Below, one piece after another: positions 194 through 54,282 of a stretch of 64,000 nt of DNA. Position numbers and translations under genes: made by a program. The notes below the pieces were generated by a model. It made no database searches and was not told the DNA's origin. It saw only the letters and a program-made list of their open reading frames with translations. Each line of letters opens with the position of its first letter. The stretch's first letter is position 1. The stretch comes from an uncultured Roseovarius sp. (GTDB lineage: Bacteria > Pseudomonadota > Alphaproteobacteria > Rhodobacterales > Rhodobacteraceae). The DNA lies in assembly GCA_947497295.1 (NCBI GenBank), contig CANMFU010000003.1:62001-126000 (forward strand). The letters are read 5' to 3'.

Positions 194-925
194 ATGGGTA
201 CCATCATCAAGCGCAAGCGGAAAGACGGCTCCACTTCCTGGCTCGCCCAAATCGCGATCCGGCGAGCAGGAAAGACGGTTTTTCGCGAGAACCGTACCTT
301 CGAGCGCCGCTCGATCGCCGCAGCCTGGCTCGAGAAACGCGAGAAGGACTTGGCGAAACCCGGTGCGTTGGAGGACTTCCGCGCAGGCGACCACAAACGC
401 CGTGATGTAACCCTCGCCGATGCCATAGATAAATATGTCGATGATAGCGCAAAGGCAATCGGTCGGACCAAGTCCCAAGTGCTCAAGAGTATTAAGAATT
501 TCGACATCGCATCCAAGCCCTGCGCTGAGATCGACAGCGCGGACATCGTCGCCTTCGCACAGGAAAAACTGAAATCGGGTGTGACACCTCAGACGGTGTC
601 AAACTACATGTCGCACATGAGCGCCGTCTTCACCGTTGCTGGACCCGCCTGGAACTATCCCCTGGACGAGAAAGCAATGCGTGACGCCCTGATTGTCGCG
701 AAGAAGCTCGGCCTGACCCAAAAGAGCCGACATCGGGACCGGCGGCCGACGTTGGACGAGCTTGATCGACTGATAACGCATTTCCTCGACCGGTCGATCC
801 GACGCCCCTCCTCCGTACCGATGCACCGCGTCATGGGTTGGCCGACTCGGCGGAGGCCGACCATACGCTGCGTCTGCGAAGGCTTCGTGCCAAAACGGCA
901 GAAGCGGCTATTCAAGCCTGAATAG
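194..925 (+). pseudogene. Tyrosine recombinase (phage-type integrase), C-terminally truncated
   Basis: The 243-residue product has the N-terminal half of a site-specific tyrosine recombinase. A basic arm-binding start (MGTIIKRKRKDG, residues 1-12) is followed by a helical core-binding domain to about residue 200 (DALIVAKKLGL, PTLDELDRLITHFLDR). After residue ~213 the sequence loses resemblance and ends in an unrelated basic tail. The catalytic domain, with its Arg, His-x-x-Arg and Tyr residues, is absent, so this cannot be an active integrase. The family is usually 330-400 residues. A deletion probably fused the first half to unrelated DNA. No ribosome-binding site is visible before the ATG. 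It marks the left end of a decayed integrated element that also carried the RES gene and the retron. Confidence 0.7.
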
Positions 926-1192: not shown

Positions 1193-2353
1193 ATGAAAAA
1201 TAAGGACGGGCGCTGGCCACCTGAAAACGTCAGCCTTTGCTTAGCTTGCTCAAAACATCCTGAAGTCATGGAGCTGGTCAATAGTGACCTCGCTGAGGGA
1301 GCTTGCGGTTTATGCGGCTCCGATTCAGAATCAGTATTTAATCTTGAAACATTCGAAAAATTGCGAAATTTGATCCGTGCTCTGATCCGATTGTATTTTG
1401 ACGAGGATGCATACAACCACCATTGGGGAGGGTCATCGGTCCACGAATTGCTATCGATTCAAAAAAAACCCGATTGTATCGATAGCTTCATCGGACACTT
1501 ACGTTGATGAATTCATCTATCGCGTCCAGGAAGAAGGCGATGTTTATCCCGCTTCTGATAAAGGAATTTGTTTATACGCGGGTCATGGCGAAATGGGGAG
1601 AGAACTACAGTTTTCAATTTCCAACACCAACCACACTTCTTTGCGCAACATTGAATATCGACTTATCCGGGAGAACTTTCATCTTGTTGAGGCTGACATG
1701 GGGTGTTTATTGATCAAATCATAGACGACCTTGCATTCAGCATACCCGAAGGTGATCTTTGGTTTCGTGCCCGAACCGGCGTCAAGAAATCTTATACCGA
1801 GATGGGAAATTTCCAGATTTCGCATATCGCTGTTCCCTTCAAGTTTGATGAAATTGGTGCGCTTCCGCCGCGTTCGGCCTCGCCCGGCAGAACCAATCGA
1901 GAAGGAGTTTCTGTTCTTTAACTTGCGAATGAAATTGAAACGGCTGTAGCAGAGATCAGACCTCACCCTGGTCATATGATTTCAGTTGGTGGGTTTCGTG
2001 CTGCAAGGTCCCTGAAAGTCGCTAACTTCGATCCTCCAATCGGCAATTTCAGCTCTTGCGACGAGAGGCTCGATTTATTTACCGATATCTTTCATGTTGG
2101 TCAACTTCTTGGCTCACCGGTTATTCCTGAAGAGAGATACAAATACGCCGCAACGCAATTACTCGCAGACATACTCATTCGTCGAGGCTTCGACGGCCTT
2201 AAGTTACGGAGCTCGGTCGGGATCGATCAAAATATTTGTATTTTCGATCCGCAAGTTTTTGAGCTTGATGAAACTAACTCTTTTGTAAAGCAGGTCGATA
2301 GTTTGCATTACGTATTCTCAAACATTCTAACCTCTCCCCCTCCCGACGAATAG
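1193..2353 (+). pseudogene. RES-domain protein with a HEPN-like N-terminal domain, broken by two frameshifts and a stop
   Basis: Read across frames, this is one RES-family gene. The N-terminal part (1193-1470) has CLAC and CGLCG cysteine pairs and resembles the N-terminal domain of large RES proteins. The RES domain begins near 1755 with WFRARTG and has the family's LPPRSASPGRTNREG and ETAVAEIRPHPG segments. Lesions are a shift out of frame near an A8 run (1461-1468), a shift back at a GGGG run near 1700-1703, and an in-frame TAA at 1919-1921 where the family has Tyr in a VLYLA motif. RES toxins degrade NAD+; this copy should be inactive unless the indels are sequencing errors. Base composition is clearly more AT-rich than the rest of the window, indicating transfer. 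No antitoxin gene is seen. Confidence 0.72.
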
Positions 2354-2561
2354 AACCGGGTGCAGACGCAAACAGATTTGATTGGTGCTGAGGTTGGAAA
2401 AATGGTCTGCTAAGCCCTGTGTTATTGTGAGATATTAAGGATTTTGAGAGTGCCTGCGATACCTTTGGCGGAACGCGGACATTCGCTGCGCCCTGGATGA
2501 CGGCAGCTGTGCGCAGAAAGTGAAGAACGCGTAGATTGGCTCCGCTTGACGTATACTTGAG

Positions 2562-3131
2562 TTAAGATTCGGGCTTGACTGCGTCCTCTTCGATCATGCC
2601 AATAATCGCGTACACAACCTCATCAATAAATCCATCTTCCTCATTCACGTTACTAGGCCAAGTTTTATATAGCGTTTCATTTAGAAGAGGGTACTTTTCA
2701 TCCACTGCGAAATATGCCGATTTGATTGGCAAAATTCGGCCTTTGCGTGATATATTCATTGAAATAGACGAATTTAGCTCTTTATTCGTCCAACCATTTT
2801 TCGCAAAAGTTTCTGTAAGATACGGCATGAAGAAGCGAGATTTCAATAGGCCATGATTAACCTTTTCCACGATAGAGTCGCCCCACTTAATAGAGCTCTC
2901 GTCAAAAAAAACTTTCACTCCCTTATTGACTAATGCGTCATTTAGCTTCCGCACATGTTCCTTGTCCTCACTTGCATGCGACAGAAAGACATCACACTCT
3001 TTTTTCATGTCGGCCAATTCCTCTACCCACTTAATATCTGTCAGGCCAGCGTCATGCGCTTGAAGACAAAGCTTCGCCAGAACGGGGTCAGACGCGCCTC
3101 TAACCTGCTTTATGTGTGCGAGCCATCCCAC
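2562..3131 (-). CDS. TIR-domain effector, with the end of the retron RT thumb at its N terminus
   Basis: Residues 46-130 form a bacterial TIR domain: CDVFLSHASEDK (46-57) is the first strand and loop, FFDESSIKWGDS follows, and WTNKEL (114-119) supplies the likely catalytic Glu118. TIR effectors of this type usually consume NAD+ when a defence system is triggered. Residues 1-30 (WLAHIKQVRGASDPVLAKL) are not TIR; they match the last part of a retron reverse transcriptase, where VRG is typical. The frame is open upstream of the nominal GTG start, through the 3' end of the RT gene. I read this as the C-terminal part of a single RT-TIR protein separated by a -1 frameshift. If it starts at the GTG it would be a free TIR protein. 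Confidence 0.8.
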   Translation of the reverse strand: MGWLAHIKQVRGASDPVLAKLCLQAHDAGLTDIKWVEELADMKKECDVFLSHASEDKEHVRKLNDALVNKGVKVFFDESSIKWGDSIVEKVNHGLLKSRFFMPYLTETFAKNGWTNKELNSSISMNISRKGRILPIKSAYFAVDEKYPLLNETLYKTWPSNVNEEDGFIDEVVYAIIGMIEEDAVKPES

Positions 3132-4042
3132 AATGTGCTTCTTGAGCTGTTGCTCATCTCCTGACGACCACGTTTTTGAAGCTTCTTGAAAACTAATTTT
3201 TTCACTGAAAATATGATCAGCCGCAGGCGAGAGATGTCAGTTCGCCTGACGTTGACGCGTTCATTTACAGTCAGGCCGGTAACCACCTGTCGGTTATTCG
3301 GCATCATAAGCCTTGTCTTCTGATCATTAATCACGAAGCCGGATGTACGAACGGCATCCTTCAGCTGGTCACCCAATGTTATTTCGCGCCCATCTTCATT
3401 GTCAAAGAAGTCTTTGACAATGCTTTTCGGAACTGCTTTCTTGCTAGAAGAAAAGGTTATATCATCAGAATACCGAGTATACTTTATCTTTTCTGATCTG
3501 GCTATCTCAAGAAATTTCCGATCCAAGCTGTTGGCAATTATATTGGCGAGTATTGGTGATGTACTTGCTCCTTGTGGCAAGCTTCCTTCGAATGTGCAGA
3601 TCCGAGCAAGAATGGTCGAAACACGTGGGTTAAAGCCAAAAAGTTTTGAAATAAAGAGCCCCCGAACCCTCGCAAAAGTTATGGAGGGAAAGAAATCCTT
3701 GAGGTCAATATTTAAAATCCATCTCTGATTATGATGGTAAGCTGCATTGGAAACGAACGATGATCCTTTAACGAAAGCCTTTACATGTGGTCCGAGATTG
3801 TAAACCTGCTTCAGAAGAGGGGTCAGCCGATCTTGAGAAAGCGCAAGCCCCCGTAAGGGCATCGCTATTTGTCTATCGTCACCGCTCTTCTTGGGTATGC
3901 TGAAAGTCTTATAATATTTTTCATCATCACAATGCTGTATGACGTAAAAAAACTTTTCTGGGTCTAATCTAAGCGCATGTGCTACATCCTTAACAGAATG
4001 AGCGATCTTAAGCTGAAAAATCTGCTGATCCAGTTCGTTCAT
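3110..4042 (-). CDS. Retron reverse transcriptase (N-terminal and catalytic part of an RT-TIR protein)
   Basis: This 310-residue protein carries the signatures that set retron RTs apart: NAxxH at 99-103 (NAAYH), first catalytic Asp in NIDLKDFF (Asp113), LPQGASTSP (155-163), the active-site YSDD at 191-194 and VTG at 254-256 followed by VNERVNVRR. It would copy part of the adjacent ncRNA into multicopy single-stranded DNA. After about residue 270 (LRLIIFS) this frame drifts into a basic tail, while the -1 frame continues into the expected RT thumb and then the TIR domain. The crossing lies near a TTTT run (3208-3211) and an A6 run (3197-3202 on the complement). The ATG is 16 nt after the ncRNA repeat, the standard retron layout. 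Base composition differs from the host genes. Confidence 0.9.
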   Translation of the reverse strand: MNELDQQIFQLKIAHSVKDVAHALRLDPEKFFYVIQHCDDEKYYKTFSIPKKSGDDRQIAMPLRGLALSQDRLTPLLKQVYNLGPHVKAFVKGSSFVSNAAYHHNQRWILNIDLKDFFPSITFARVRGLFISKLFGFNPRVSTILARICTFEGSLPQGASTSPILANIIANSLDRKFLEIARSEKIKYTRYSDDITFSSSKKAVPKSIVKDFFDNEDGREITLGDQLKDAVRTSGFVINDQKTRLMMPNNRQVVTGLTVNERVNVRRTDISRLRLIIFSVKKLVFKKLQKRGRQEMSNSSRSTLWDGSHT

Positions 4043-4058
4043 TGTCTACCCAGTTTCT

Positions 4059-4189
4059 GCAGCTCGACCCTCGCTCTTTACCTCGTGTCGGGTATTCCGC
4101 ATGTCGCACGGGCGACGCCGCGCGATTGTGTACTGACATTCTAATAAGCAGCCGTGGATTCAACAGCCCCAAGTAGAGGGTCGAGCTGC
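4059..4189 (-). ncRNA. Retron msr-msd RNA
   Basis: On the RT strand, GCAGCTCGACCCTC (4189-4176) is matched by a perfect reverse complement at 4072-4059, giving a 14-bp a1/a2 stem that encloses about 100 nt. The second arm ends 16 nt before the RT start codon, as in known retrons, where a1/a2 pairing and a branching guanosine prime reverse transcription. Inside, GTCGC-4 nt-GCGAC (4103-4116) is a clear hairpin suitable for the msd. The repeat and hairpin are seen directly; msr/msd borders and the priming base are not determined. The full structure would need RNA folding with covariance across related retrons. Confidence 0.8.
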
Positions 4190-4417
4190 CATCGTGCTCT
4201 CATGACTATCGAGATCATTAAAGACCCAGCAATCAAGTTATCTCATCACGTTGCCTAAATACCCCGGACATCGACCTTAAAAGCCAACCACCCTTCGTCT
4301 CGCCGTAACGCCTCATGCTGAGCCGCGCATGATACTCGTATACAAGTTGACTCCGGTCATCTGCTGTGAGCGTCACGAATGACGGTATGGGCCGGATGCC
4401 ACTTCTTCATGCGCCTT

Positions 4418-4905
4418 TTACACACGACCTTGGTGATCGACCTTGTCCCAGAATGCGTGTTTGCGTGGGTCCGTACGCCGTAGGTCCTGCACAAAGGCAT
4501 CGTGGCTTTGAAAGACGCCGTAATCCGCGATTGCCATATCGGCCTGGGCGCAGGAGGCGAGGTGCCGGGCGGCATGGCGGTAGCGTTTGGCGCGGTTGTT
4601 TTGAAGGGCAAAGGTGATCATCGAGCGCCACACCAGTGTGGCGGCCAAGGGATGTTCGGACCTTAGCAACTCGGATATGGGGGTCAGAACTTCATAGGCA
4701 TTGCCATCCAGCTCTGCGTGACGGGACAGTATCACGTCAGTGGCAAGCCCGGCATCGGGCCAATTCAAAAAGAAGATGAGCCCCTGGAGCAGGTCGGGAT
4801 GGGTCCGCACATGGGTGCGGGCATCCAGCAGCGCCTCATCATCGTCGAAATCGGGCAGGCGTGAGAGATAGCGGCGCAGAGTCTCCGCGCAGACGTATGG
4901 TTCGG
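4418..4905 (-). pseudogene. C-terminal fragment of a DUF6880-family protein
   Basis: About 158 residues, from LRRYLSRLPDFDDDEALLDA to the TAA at 4418-4420, match the C-terminal half of the DUF6880 family: RHAELDGNAYE, HPLAATLVWRSMI and KRYRHAARHLASC are the recognisable segments. The family has several hundred residues and no related sequence or start codon appears upstream. The frame stays open further, but there it runs antisense to a DoxX gene and has no resemblance. I therefore call a 5'-truncated remnant. Its approximate right end was placed where similarity stops. Confidence 0.6.
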
Positions 4906-5053
4906 CTATGAATACATGCGCCGCGCCAATATTGAGGGCATGTTCCGCTGGGTCACAACCACCGCCGCGGCGTCTGGTAAGATCTCGCCACCTCTGGCTA
5001 TTGTCGGCCGCAGCCCCCCGCTGCGGCCGGTTTTGCGTGCGGCGGCGCGCGTT

Positions 5054-5079
5054 TATTGCATCTAGTGCAATAGTGAATG
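5054..5079. promoter_or_regulatory. Palindromic LysR-type operator candidate
   Basis: TATTGCA (5054-5060) and TGCAATA (5066-5072) form a perfect 7-bp inverted repeat with a 5-nt spacer, about 130 nt before the DoxX start. The overlapping string GCAATAGTGAATG (5067-5079) recurs with one change as GCAATGGTGAATG at 13066-13078, in the promoter between a LysR gene and a VOC dioxygenase. A common regulator is inferred. Confidence 0.4.
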
Positions 5080-5203
5080 ACGGATTATCCCTGTTCCAAG
5101 GCAGACGCGGCGCCCCTAGTTTAGCGTCAGACCCCCGGCGCAGCACCCCCCCCGCCATTGCGCAATCGGCCTGTTTCGAGACGACCAAAAAAGGAGACCG
5201 CAG

Positions 5204-9835: not shown

Positions 9836-10396
9836 ATGACACGCATCTTGGGGATTTCCGGCAGCCTGCGCGCGGGCTCGTTCAACACTGCGCTTTTGCG
9901 CACCGCGCAGGGCCTCATGCCCTAGGGCGCCACCTTGGAGGAAGGCAGCATTCGCGGCATACCGCTCTATGATGCGGACGAGGAGGCGCAGGCGGGTATC
10001 CCCCCAGCGGTCGAGCGTTTGAAAGAGCAGATGGCGGCCGCCGATGGCGTGCTGCTTTTTACGCCCGAGTACAACAATTCGATCCCCGGCGTGTTCAAGA
10101 ACGCGATCGACTGGACCAGCCGCCCCGCCAGCGATATCGCCCGCATCTTTGGCGGCAAACGGGTGGCCGTGCTGGGCGCCTCGCCCGGCGGGTTCGGCAC
10201 GATCCTGTCGCAGGATGCCTGGCTGAGCGTGCTGCGCACCCTCGGCACGCGGCCCTGGTATGAGGGCCGGTTGATGGTGGCGCGGGCGGGCGGCGTCTTT
10301 GACGAGGACGGGCAGATGACCGACGGCGCAATGCGGGACCGCCTTGCGGCGTTTCTCGCCGGATTTAGCGCCTTCGCCGCCGCGCGGGACAGCTGA
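9836..10396 (+). pseudogene. NADPH-dependent FMN reductase, interrupted by an amber codon
   Basis: The sequence reads as a complete 186-residue flavodoxin-like NAD(P)H:FMN/quinone reductase: MTRILGISGSLRAGSFN carries the FMN phosphate loop (GSLRAGSFN), and FTPEYNNSIPGVFKNAIDW and LGASPGGFGT are family hallmarks. A TAG at 9923-9925, codon 30, breaks it after GLMP. The frame is otherwise intact to the stop at 10394-10396, so only one base separates it from a working gene. No internal start would restore the nucleotide-binding loop. Either a recent nonsense mutation, a base-call error, or suppression explains this. Confidence 0.85.
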
Positions 10397-25464: not shown

Positions 25465-25785
25465 CTATGGATGGCACCAGACCATGAAGAACCGGATCGT
25501 GCTGGAAAACGACTACCTGCCCGGCGATCTCGAACGCCAGATCGGGGCCTTCGCCGATTACTACACCAACCAGCGCTACCACGAGAGCCTGAGCAACGTC
25601 ACACCCGCCGACGTCTACTTCGGCCGCGACAAAGCCATTCTCAGAGAAAGGAAAAGGATCAAGACGCAGACAATCCGCCACTGCCGCTTGCAACGTCAAA
25701 AACAAGTCGCATACTCAATCACACAAACGAGCCAGAGCCTCCAATGCTCAAACCGCTCTCATGTCCCGTTTTATATGACGACGGA
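25465..25785 (+). mobile_element. IS3-family transposase (OrfB) C-terminal remnant
   Basis: In the second frame, GWHQTMKNRIVLENDYLPGD, then FADYYTNQRYHESLSNVTPADVYFGR, match the end of an IS3-family rve integrase domain; Tyr-His-Glu-Ser and the TPADVYFGR motif are diagnostic. The DDE catalytic core and OrfA are missing. The right end is probably near 25785. It abuts the truncated MpaB gene, so the insertion or a deletion from it removed that gene's 3' part. Confidence 0.8.
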
Positions 25786-26070
25786 CAGGTAAGGCGCCAA
25801 CAACAGGTGCAACACATTTCGTTTGCAGCGGTTTCGGGCAACGAAATAAGGGGCTTCAGAATCCTTGGGGCACTATTCATCACGATGCTCAAGGTACGAA
25901 TCCCATATCCCAAATCTCGCGTAGCTTGCCCTCGTCGCTCCCGACCCGCTCCTGCCGTTCAGGTAAGCTTCCGATGCAGCAGGGCCGCGTGAGAGAAGAC
26001 TTACGTTACCGTGCGGTCATTTTATGTTAAGATGGTATCATTCAAACACTACTCGCTTTGGGAGTGTGCC

Positions 26071-53867: not shown

Positions 53868-54282
53868 TCAATCGGGAATGACTGCGGTGACTTCAGTTTC
53901 GACAAGCCATTCGGGCCGCGCCAGCGCAGACACTACGATACCGGTCAAGCAGGGATGCACCCCTTTCAGCCACTTGCCCATTTCCTGATACGCGGCCTCG
54001 CGGTGACGGATATCGACCAGATACACCACAATCCAGCAAACATGCGCCATTTCGCTGCCCGCCTCCTGCAACAGCGTATCGATAGTCTCCATAGTCTTGC
54101 GCGTCTGCGATACCGCGTCGCCGATACCGATGTTTTCGCAGCCGCCCAGATCCTGCGCGACCTGACCTCGCAAGAATACCATCGTGCCACGCGCAACCCA
54201 GCCCTTGTGACAGATCGTTTTCCAGCTTCTGCTCGGGATAGGTGTCACGAGTGTTGAACGGGCGCCGGGGTTTATGGGTCAT
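53868..54282 (-). pseudogene. RidA-family protein with a single-base frameshift
   Basis: MTHKPRRPFNTRDTYPEQKL begins a RidA/YjgF protein and breaks after ENDLSQ. One frame over it continues GWVARGTMVFLRGQVAQDLG, then WLKGVHPCLTGIVVSALARP, to VIPD. Removing one base from the GGG run at 54202-54204 (CCC on the + strand) restores the sequence LSQGWVARGTM. RidA proteins hydrolyse reactive imines made by PLP enzymes, which suits the nearby aminotransferase. The gene is either newly inactivated or carries a sequencing error. Confidence 0.82.

Follow-up and report, generated by a model that had tools for sequence, protein, structure and literature searches.

A Roseovarius Retron of the RT-TIR Type Whose Reading Frame Has Probably Been Lost in the Reverse Transcriptase Thumb

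A Retron Gene in Two Reading Frames

The stretch of 64,000 nucleotides analyzed here, from an uncultured Roseovarius sp. (the window), carries on its minus strand two overlapping open frames in different reading frames, one for a reverse transcriptase (RT) and the other ending in a TIR domain, next to a predicted retron ncRNA (Table 1). The RT frame contains the motifs NAAYH, YSDD and VTG, which agree with the NAxxH, YxDD and VTG by which retron RTs are recognized, and it matches the Pfam domain RVT_1 (1e-20). The TIR frame is open from at least position 3233 down to 2562, has GTG 3131 as its first start codon and matches TIR_2 (2.2e-18). In TIR domains the Glu of the W..KEL stretch is the presumed catalytic residue, and its column is nearly invariant across the aligned copies of this gene.

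Table 1. Positions of the retron components, the adjoining genes and two broken genes elsewhere in the window.
Feature	Position	Strand	Remarks
Integrase, truncated	194..925	+	adjoins dusA; matched to 242 of the 392 residues in its relative, which lies in L112
RES-domain gene, broken	1193..2353	+	three pieces in two frames; in-frame stop 1919-1921
TIR frame	2562..3196	-	what is left of the RT thumb, then the linker and the TIR domain; stop after 211 codons
TIR_2 domain	2673..2990	-	P0002 residues 82-187; bears W..KEL with the presumed catalytic Glu
RT frame	3110..4042	-	310 aa, ATG start; about 28 residues past the A run unlike homologues
A6 run (sense strand)	3197..3202	-	frame-change point
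Predicted retron ncRNA (msr-msd)	4059..4189	-	bounded by a 14-bp inverted repeat without mismatch (4176-4189, 4059-4072)
DUF6880 gene, C-terminal remnant	4389..4891	-	profile positions 322-471 of 472
FMN_red gene, broken	9836-10396	+	in-frame TAG near 9923-9925; sense codon in relative G034
L-PSP (RidA-like) gene, broken	53868-54282	-	frame change near 54188-54199

The a1/a2 inverted repeat that characterizes retrons lies 5' of the RT frame, and the RNA of positions 4043-4192 folds at -58.3 kcal/mol (z -2.97), a value equalled by none of 200 shuffled sequences. Similar arms precede the RT in three relatives (L109, L002 and L090), and the 5' part of the ncRNA is nearly identical between the window and the first two of these. 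A scan of positions 1500-5200 against Rfam gave no match up to E 1, and the predicted ncRNA therefore falls outside the curated families; among viral contigs, a 24-mer of it was found solely in the contig that carries L109.

Both frames belong to one gene family. The NCBIfam model NF042941 ("TIR domain-containing anti-phage reverse transcriptase") is matched by the RT frame over model positions 1-276 of 464 (409.8 bits, E 1.4e-122) and by the TIR frame over positions 279-460 (233.5 bits, E 4.4e-69), and since the two pieces match a single model of 464 positions, in order, their pairing is not due to chance. Scored apart, neither piece reaches the 600 bits set as the cut-off for the whole protein, because the reading frame is broken at the A6 run; the one-frame relatives L109 and L002 score 675.3 and 652.7, both above it. 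The two pieces likewise match the PADLOC single-gene type RT-TIR_XII as abutting halves (E 1.3e-111 for the RT). The numbering of retron types, with type XII for RT-TIR, is reportedly that of Mestre et al. A working member of the family would read RT and TIR in a single frame; at the window locus they occupy two, so we describe it as a broken member by descent.

These results bear out most of the original prediction, which had proposed a retron with an RT-TIR protein divided by a -1 frame change. Its coordinates and the -1 reading are correct, with the switch at the A6 run; the RT motifs that it named are present in the 310-residue frame; and the end at 4189, which lies beyond the RT start, is accounted for by the upstream arm of the ncRNA. 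The identity as a retron follows from the ncRNA arms and the PADLOC and NCBIfam matches, and that RT and TIR were ancestrally one protein follows from the abutting NF042941 halves and from homologues that are mostly in one frame. It had also taken the beginning of the TIR frame for the RT's own thumb, and the stretch concerned (GWLAHI.QVRG.SDPVLAKLC) does sit in the same chain in the one-frame relatives.

The genome holds a second retron-like RT (L088, G000:C17:20914-21405), a 326-residue open frame for which RT_IX is the best match in PADLOC (3.2e-126).

Relatives of the RT-TIR Gene

RT-TIR retrons are already known, as an NCBIfam equivalog, as a PADLOC type and as the published Retron-TIR, which was reported by Gao et al. 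(PMC7699616). The original prediction had singled out an RT-TIR chain crossing a slip-prone site in an alphaproteobacterium as noteworthy; the split itself was confirmed, but the family is already curated and also occurs in further alphaproteobacteria, Shimia (L002) and Hyphomicrobium (L003).

A scan of contigs recovered 385 RT relatives, of which the best 80 were examined; seven of these 80 had a TIR match, in all seven cases in the frame of the RT. A family-wide search at E up to 1e-40 gave matches in 18 of 394 genomes, the own genome counted, and those of L090, L092, L093 and L107 spanned both RT and TIR. These seven and four copies, together with L109 from a viral contig and L132 from E. 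coli, the latter annotated as one CDS, make up the 13 of 14 other RT-TIR copies that are in one frame and free of internal stops across the aligned gene; L107 reaches the end of its contig ahead of any stop. None of the homologues in this alignment, which the original prediction had called for, is shifted at the place where the window gene is. Nor did the homologues examined include the contrary case that it had described, close homologues with RT and TIR as separate genes divided at this same place. The remaining copy, on the E. coli plasmid p13P484A-1 (L110), resembles that of the window in lying in two frames, but its split is near residue 186 (P0003 numbering), within the RT core.

In E. 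coli, 82 of 5,426 complete genomes carry the RT-TIR gene at a level of at least 99%. Among the 20 records listed of the 83 matched, the gene is one CDS in 18, is split in one (a plasmid) and is interrupted by IS1 in one, the insertion lying inside the RT-TIR gene of NZ_OY757949.1. We therefore rejected the notion that no other RT-TIR gene is broken, given both the L110 gene, which is split elsewhere, and the IS1-cut record.

An order-wide search with P0003 at E up to 1e-60 matched four of 390 genomes (own genome included), and besides the window only the gene of G313 (L090) was matched over RT and TIR. A search with the TIR within the genus found five of 84 genomes, again with the own one included, and the other four were matches at the level of the TIR only, with 28-40% identity. 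The DNA of the whole retron, compared with phage and plasmid collections by blastn with 11-base words, had no match. The closest relatives found were L109, from an IMG/VR contig, and L002, from Shimia sp. R9_2, which form single open frames of 493 and 506 aa, in contrast to the split gene of the window. L002 is 68.5% and 69.8% identical to the window in the two parts. With L109, the window RT frame shares 221 of 283 residues before the A run and only 6 of 27 past it, where the TIR frame shares 156 of 210. The L109 gene lies on the minus strand of L136 (11848-13329), a few kb from a long ORF that, judged by its sequence, resembles a Mu-like transposase.

The Frame-Change Site and the RT Thumb

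The A6 run fills two in-frame AAA (lysine) codons of the RT frame, in the context GTG AAA AAA TTA, so that a one-base slip by a single tRNA would be possible. A slip at this run, by programmed -1 frameshifting or during transcription, could then give some full-length RT-TIR along with the short RT, as the original prediction had considered in proposing a mechanism that sets the ratio of the two products, and the 211 codons of the TIR frame are indeed open and look constrained. A canonical -1 slippery heptamer has the form X XXY YYZ in the zero frame, and no such heptamer is present at the A6 site, since G AAA AAA does not fit. Pseudoknot-free folding of the 87 nt downstream revealed no stimulating structure (z -1.03, with 31 of 200 shuffles as good), and by eye there is no Shine-Dalgarno-like stretch immediately 5' of the run. 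The relatives also argue against a slip in use by the cell: the site and the frame change are not kept among the 13 one-frame copies, 12 of which have no A/T run of 6 at this place. L109 reads AAAGAAGG and L002 reads AAAGAAAG, and L009, the only copy with A6 at the same site, is nevertheless in one frame. The short product would in addition be without most of the thumb, discussed below. We consider programmed frameshifting or slippage improbable here, and a ratio-setting role is unsupported; our literature search found no work linking retrons with programmed ribosomal frameshifting. The proposal that slippage at A6 provides a small share of RT-TIR, so that a costly TIR effector is kept at low dose in this lineage alone, is very improbable.

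A working two-protein system is also conceivable, in which the TIR part would be restarted at GTG 3131, which overlaps the RT stop by 22 nt, or at ATG 3008, which lies 11 nt past a GAGG and would yield a TIR protein of 148 aa. We judge this highly improbable: L109 and L002, which are in one frame, have the ATG as well, the homologues examined include none with RT and TIR divided at this place, and the RT frame would still end within the thumb. A natural 310-residue RT accompanied by a separate TIR gene was rejected, with the thumb residues quoted above lying in the TIR frame.

An AlphaFold2 model of L109 (mean pLDDT 81.0, pTM 0.53) places the lesion within the RT thumb, although with these scores the placement of the domains is uncertain. 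In the model the point of the break (residues 282-283) ends the first thumb helix (267-283), and three further helices (285-292, 300-315 and 320-331) come past it, ahead of the TIR domain. The best structural matches of the RT part were Eco2 and Ec86, with Eco2 (9lm3) at the top (E 4.7e-28). Retron Eco2 (Ec67), also the best PDB match by sequence, resembles the window retron in that its RT is fused to an effector, and differs from it in that this effector is a Toprim and not a TIR domain. Such fusions have been reported for about 32.8% of 3,395 retron or retron-like RTs, with Toprim, protease and TIR among the effectors; the same source describes Toprim pieces as toxic on their own and the whole protein as non-toxic, and the Eco2 thumb as contacting the msr RNA (PMC12405507). 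The short RT of the window should therefore not work as a retron RT. Its frame stops shortly past the A run and unrelated residues stand in for most of the thumb, so this copy would be expected to yield neither a normal RT nor a TIR joined to one.

In an intact copy, the RT would use the ncRNA to make msDNA, in complex with which it would keep the fused TIR effector silent until interference by a phage released the TIR, probably leading to NAD depletion. In the window copy, loss of the frame at A6 within the thumb would have inactivated the retron. We think it rather probable that the locus is one of the known single-gene type RT-TIR (Retron-TIR, PADLOC type XII) in which the frame has been lost in the RT thumb.

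With respect to L109, pN and pS are 0.140 and 0.877 for the RT and 0.170 and 0.851 for the TIR, synonymous sites between the two being saturated. When amino-acid changes were polarized with L002, 21 fell to the window and 17 to L109 in the RT, and 17 and 13 in the TIR, i.e. there was no clear excess on the window branch in either part. The lesion would therefore be recent, or not real, or bypassed. We regard it as probably recent, since no other lesion was seen in this gene and each half still has the look of being under constraint.

A Decaying Island Beside dusA

The gene dusA, with its Dus domain, lies directly to the left (its match ends at window position 85), and genomic islands have been described whose integrases lie at dusA's 5' end (PMC4482086). 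DNA similarity of the window integrase to an intact relative stops near position 839. The pieces of the RES gene were defined by tblastn with a 386-aa homologue in L133, the RES domain itself lying at 1976-2353, and the first frame change of this gene is at an A8 run (1461-1468); among 198 genomes of the family only the own copy was found, and three plasmids were matched. The DUF6880 remnant is 92% identical to L123 across 503 bases, after which similarity stops. With integrase, RES and DUF6880 genes all broken, the retron sits among broken genes, and we conclude that it lies on a decaying island beside dusA. The flanks searched of L109 and L002, unlike those of the window, have no match to the dusA integrase, dusA or RES. 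Between dusA and the retron flank, the search for attachment repeats gave a single 17-nt pair, 88% identical, the second member of which falls within the RT gene, and we therefore do not use repeats to place an end of the island. In a genus relative (L120) the integrase copy is likewise truncated, with other residues beyond about 144. Elsewhere in the window, a segment at about 25470-25790 recurs within the same genome and among many relatives of the genus and is likely a mobile element.

The frame change could also be an error of base calling or assembly at the homopolymer, in which case the cell would carry an intact RT-TIR retron. The genome is a draft of 32 contigs, the single lesion of a gene whose halves look constrained falls on an A6 run, and a frame change of the RES gene likewise falls at an A run. 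In another dusA island, a frameshift in hsdS is reported to have turned out to be a sequencing error (PMC4482086). A census of frames against four genus relatives, covering 8 stretches of 20 kb, gave 22 rows, in 17 of which there was one frame without stops, among them the integrase and DUF6880, though truncated. Five rows had stops or two frames; two of these are real breaks, in the FMN_red and L-PSP genes, and the other three we took to be shadow frames of the ORF list, in whole or in part. The two broken genes are ordinary ones outside the island, and together with the A8 frame change of the RES gene they raise the odds of base-call error, since they fit general error as well as decay. Against error, most census rows (17 of 22) show a single uninterrupted frame, and longer runs within the same gene, of 8 at 2904-2911 and of 7 at 3946-3952, are in frame. 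Moreover, the in-frame stop in RES and the truncated integrase and DUF6880 genes are not homopolymer errors. A run of this length is in itself unremarkable here, because the RT-TIR gene holds four of the 18 A/T runs of at least 6 in the whole window and has a G+C content of 43% (62% for window positions 20001-64000).

The original prediction had left three possibilities, namely new inactivation, wrong base calls and a frameshift that sets the ratio of products. We rate a wrong call as unlikely, while it remains a real rival in view of the two ordinary genes broken elsewhere in the window; the two halves are otherwise free of stops and look constrained, as would be the case with an error or a bypass. 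New inactivation fits best: our preferred reading, and a fairly probable one, is that a retron of known type has recently lost its function through this lesion.

Use of the slip by the cell would represent a new way of dosing a toxic effector, although the evidence is against it. What this locus adds to a retron family known for phage defence is a divergent and apparently broken copy, showing how a decaying island can lose such genes.
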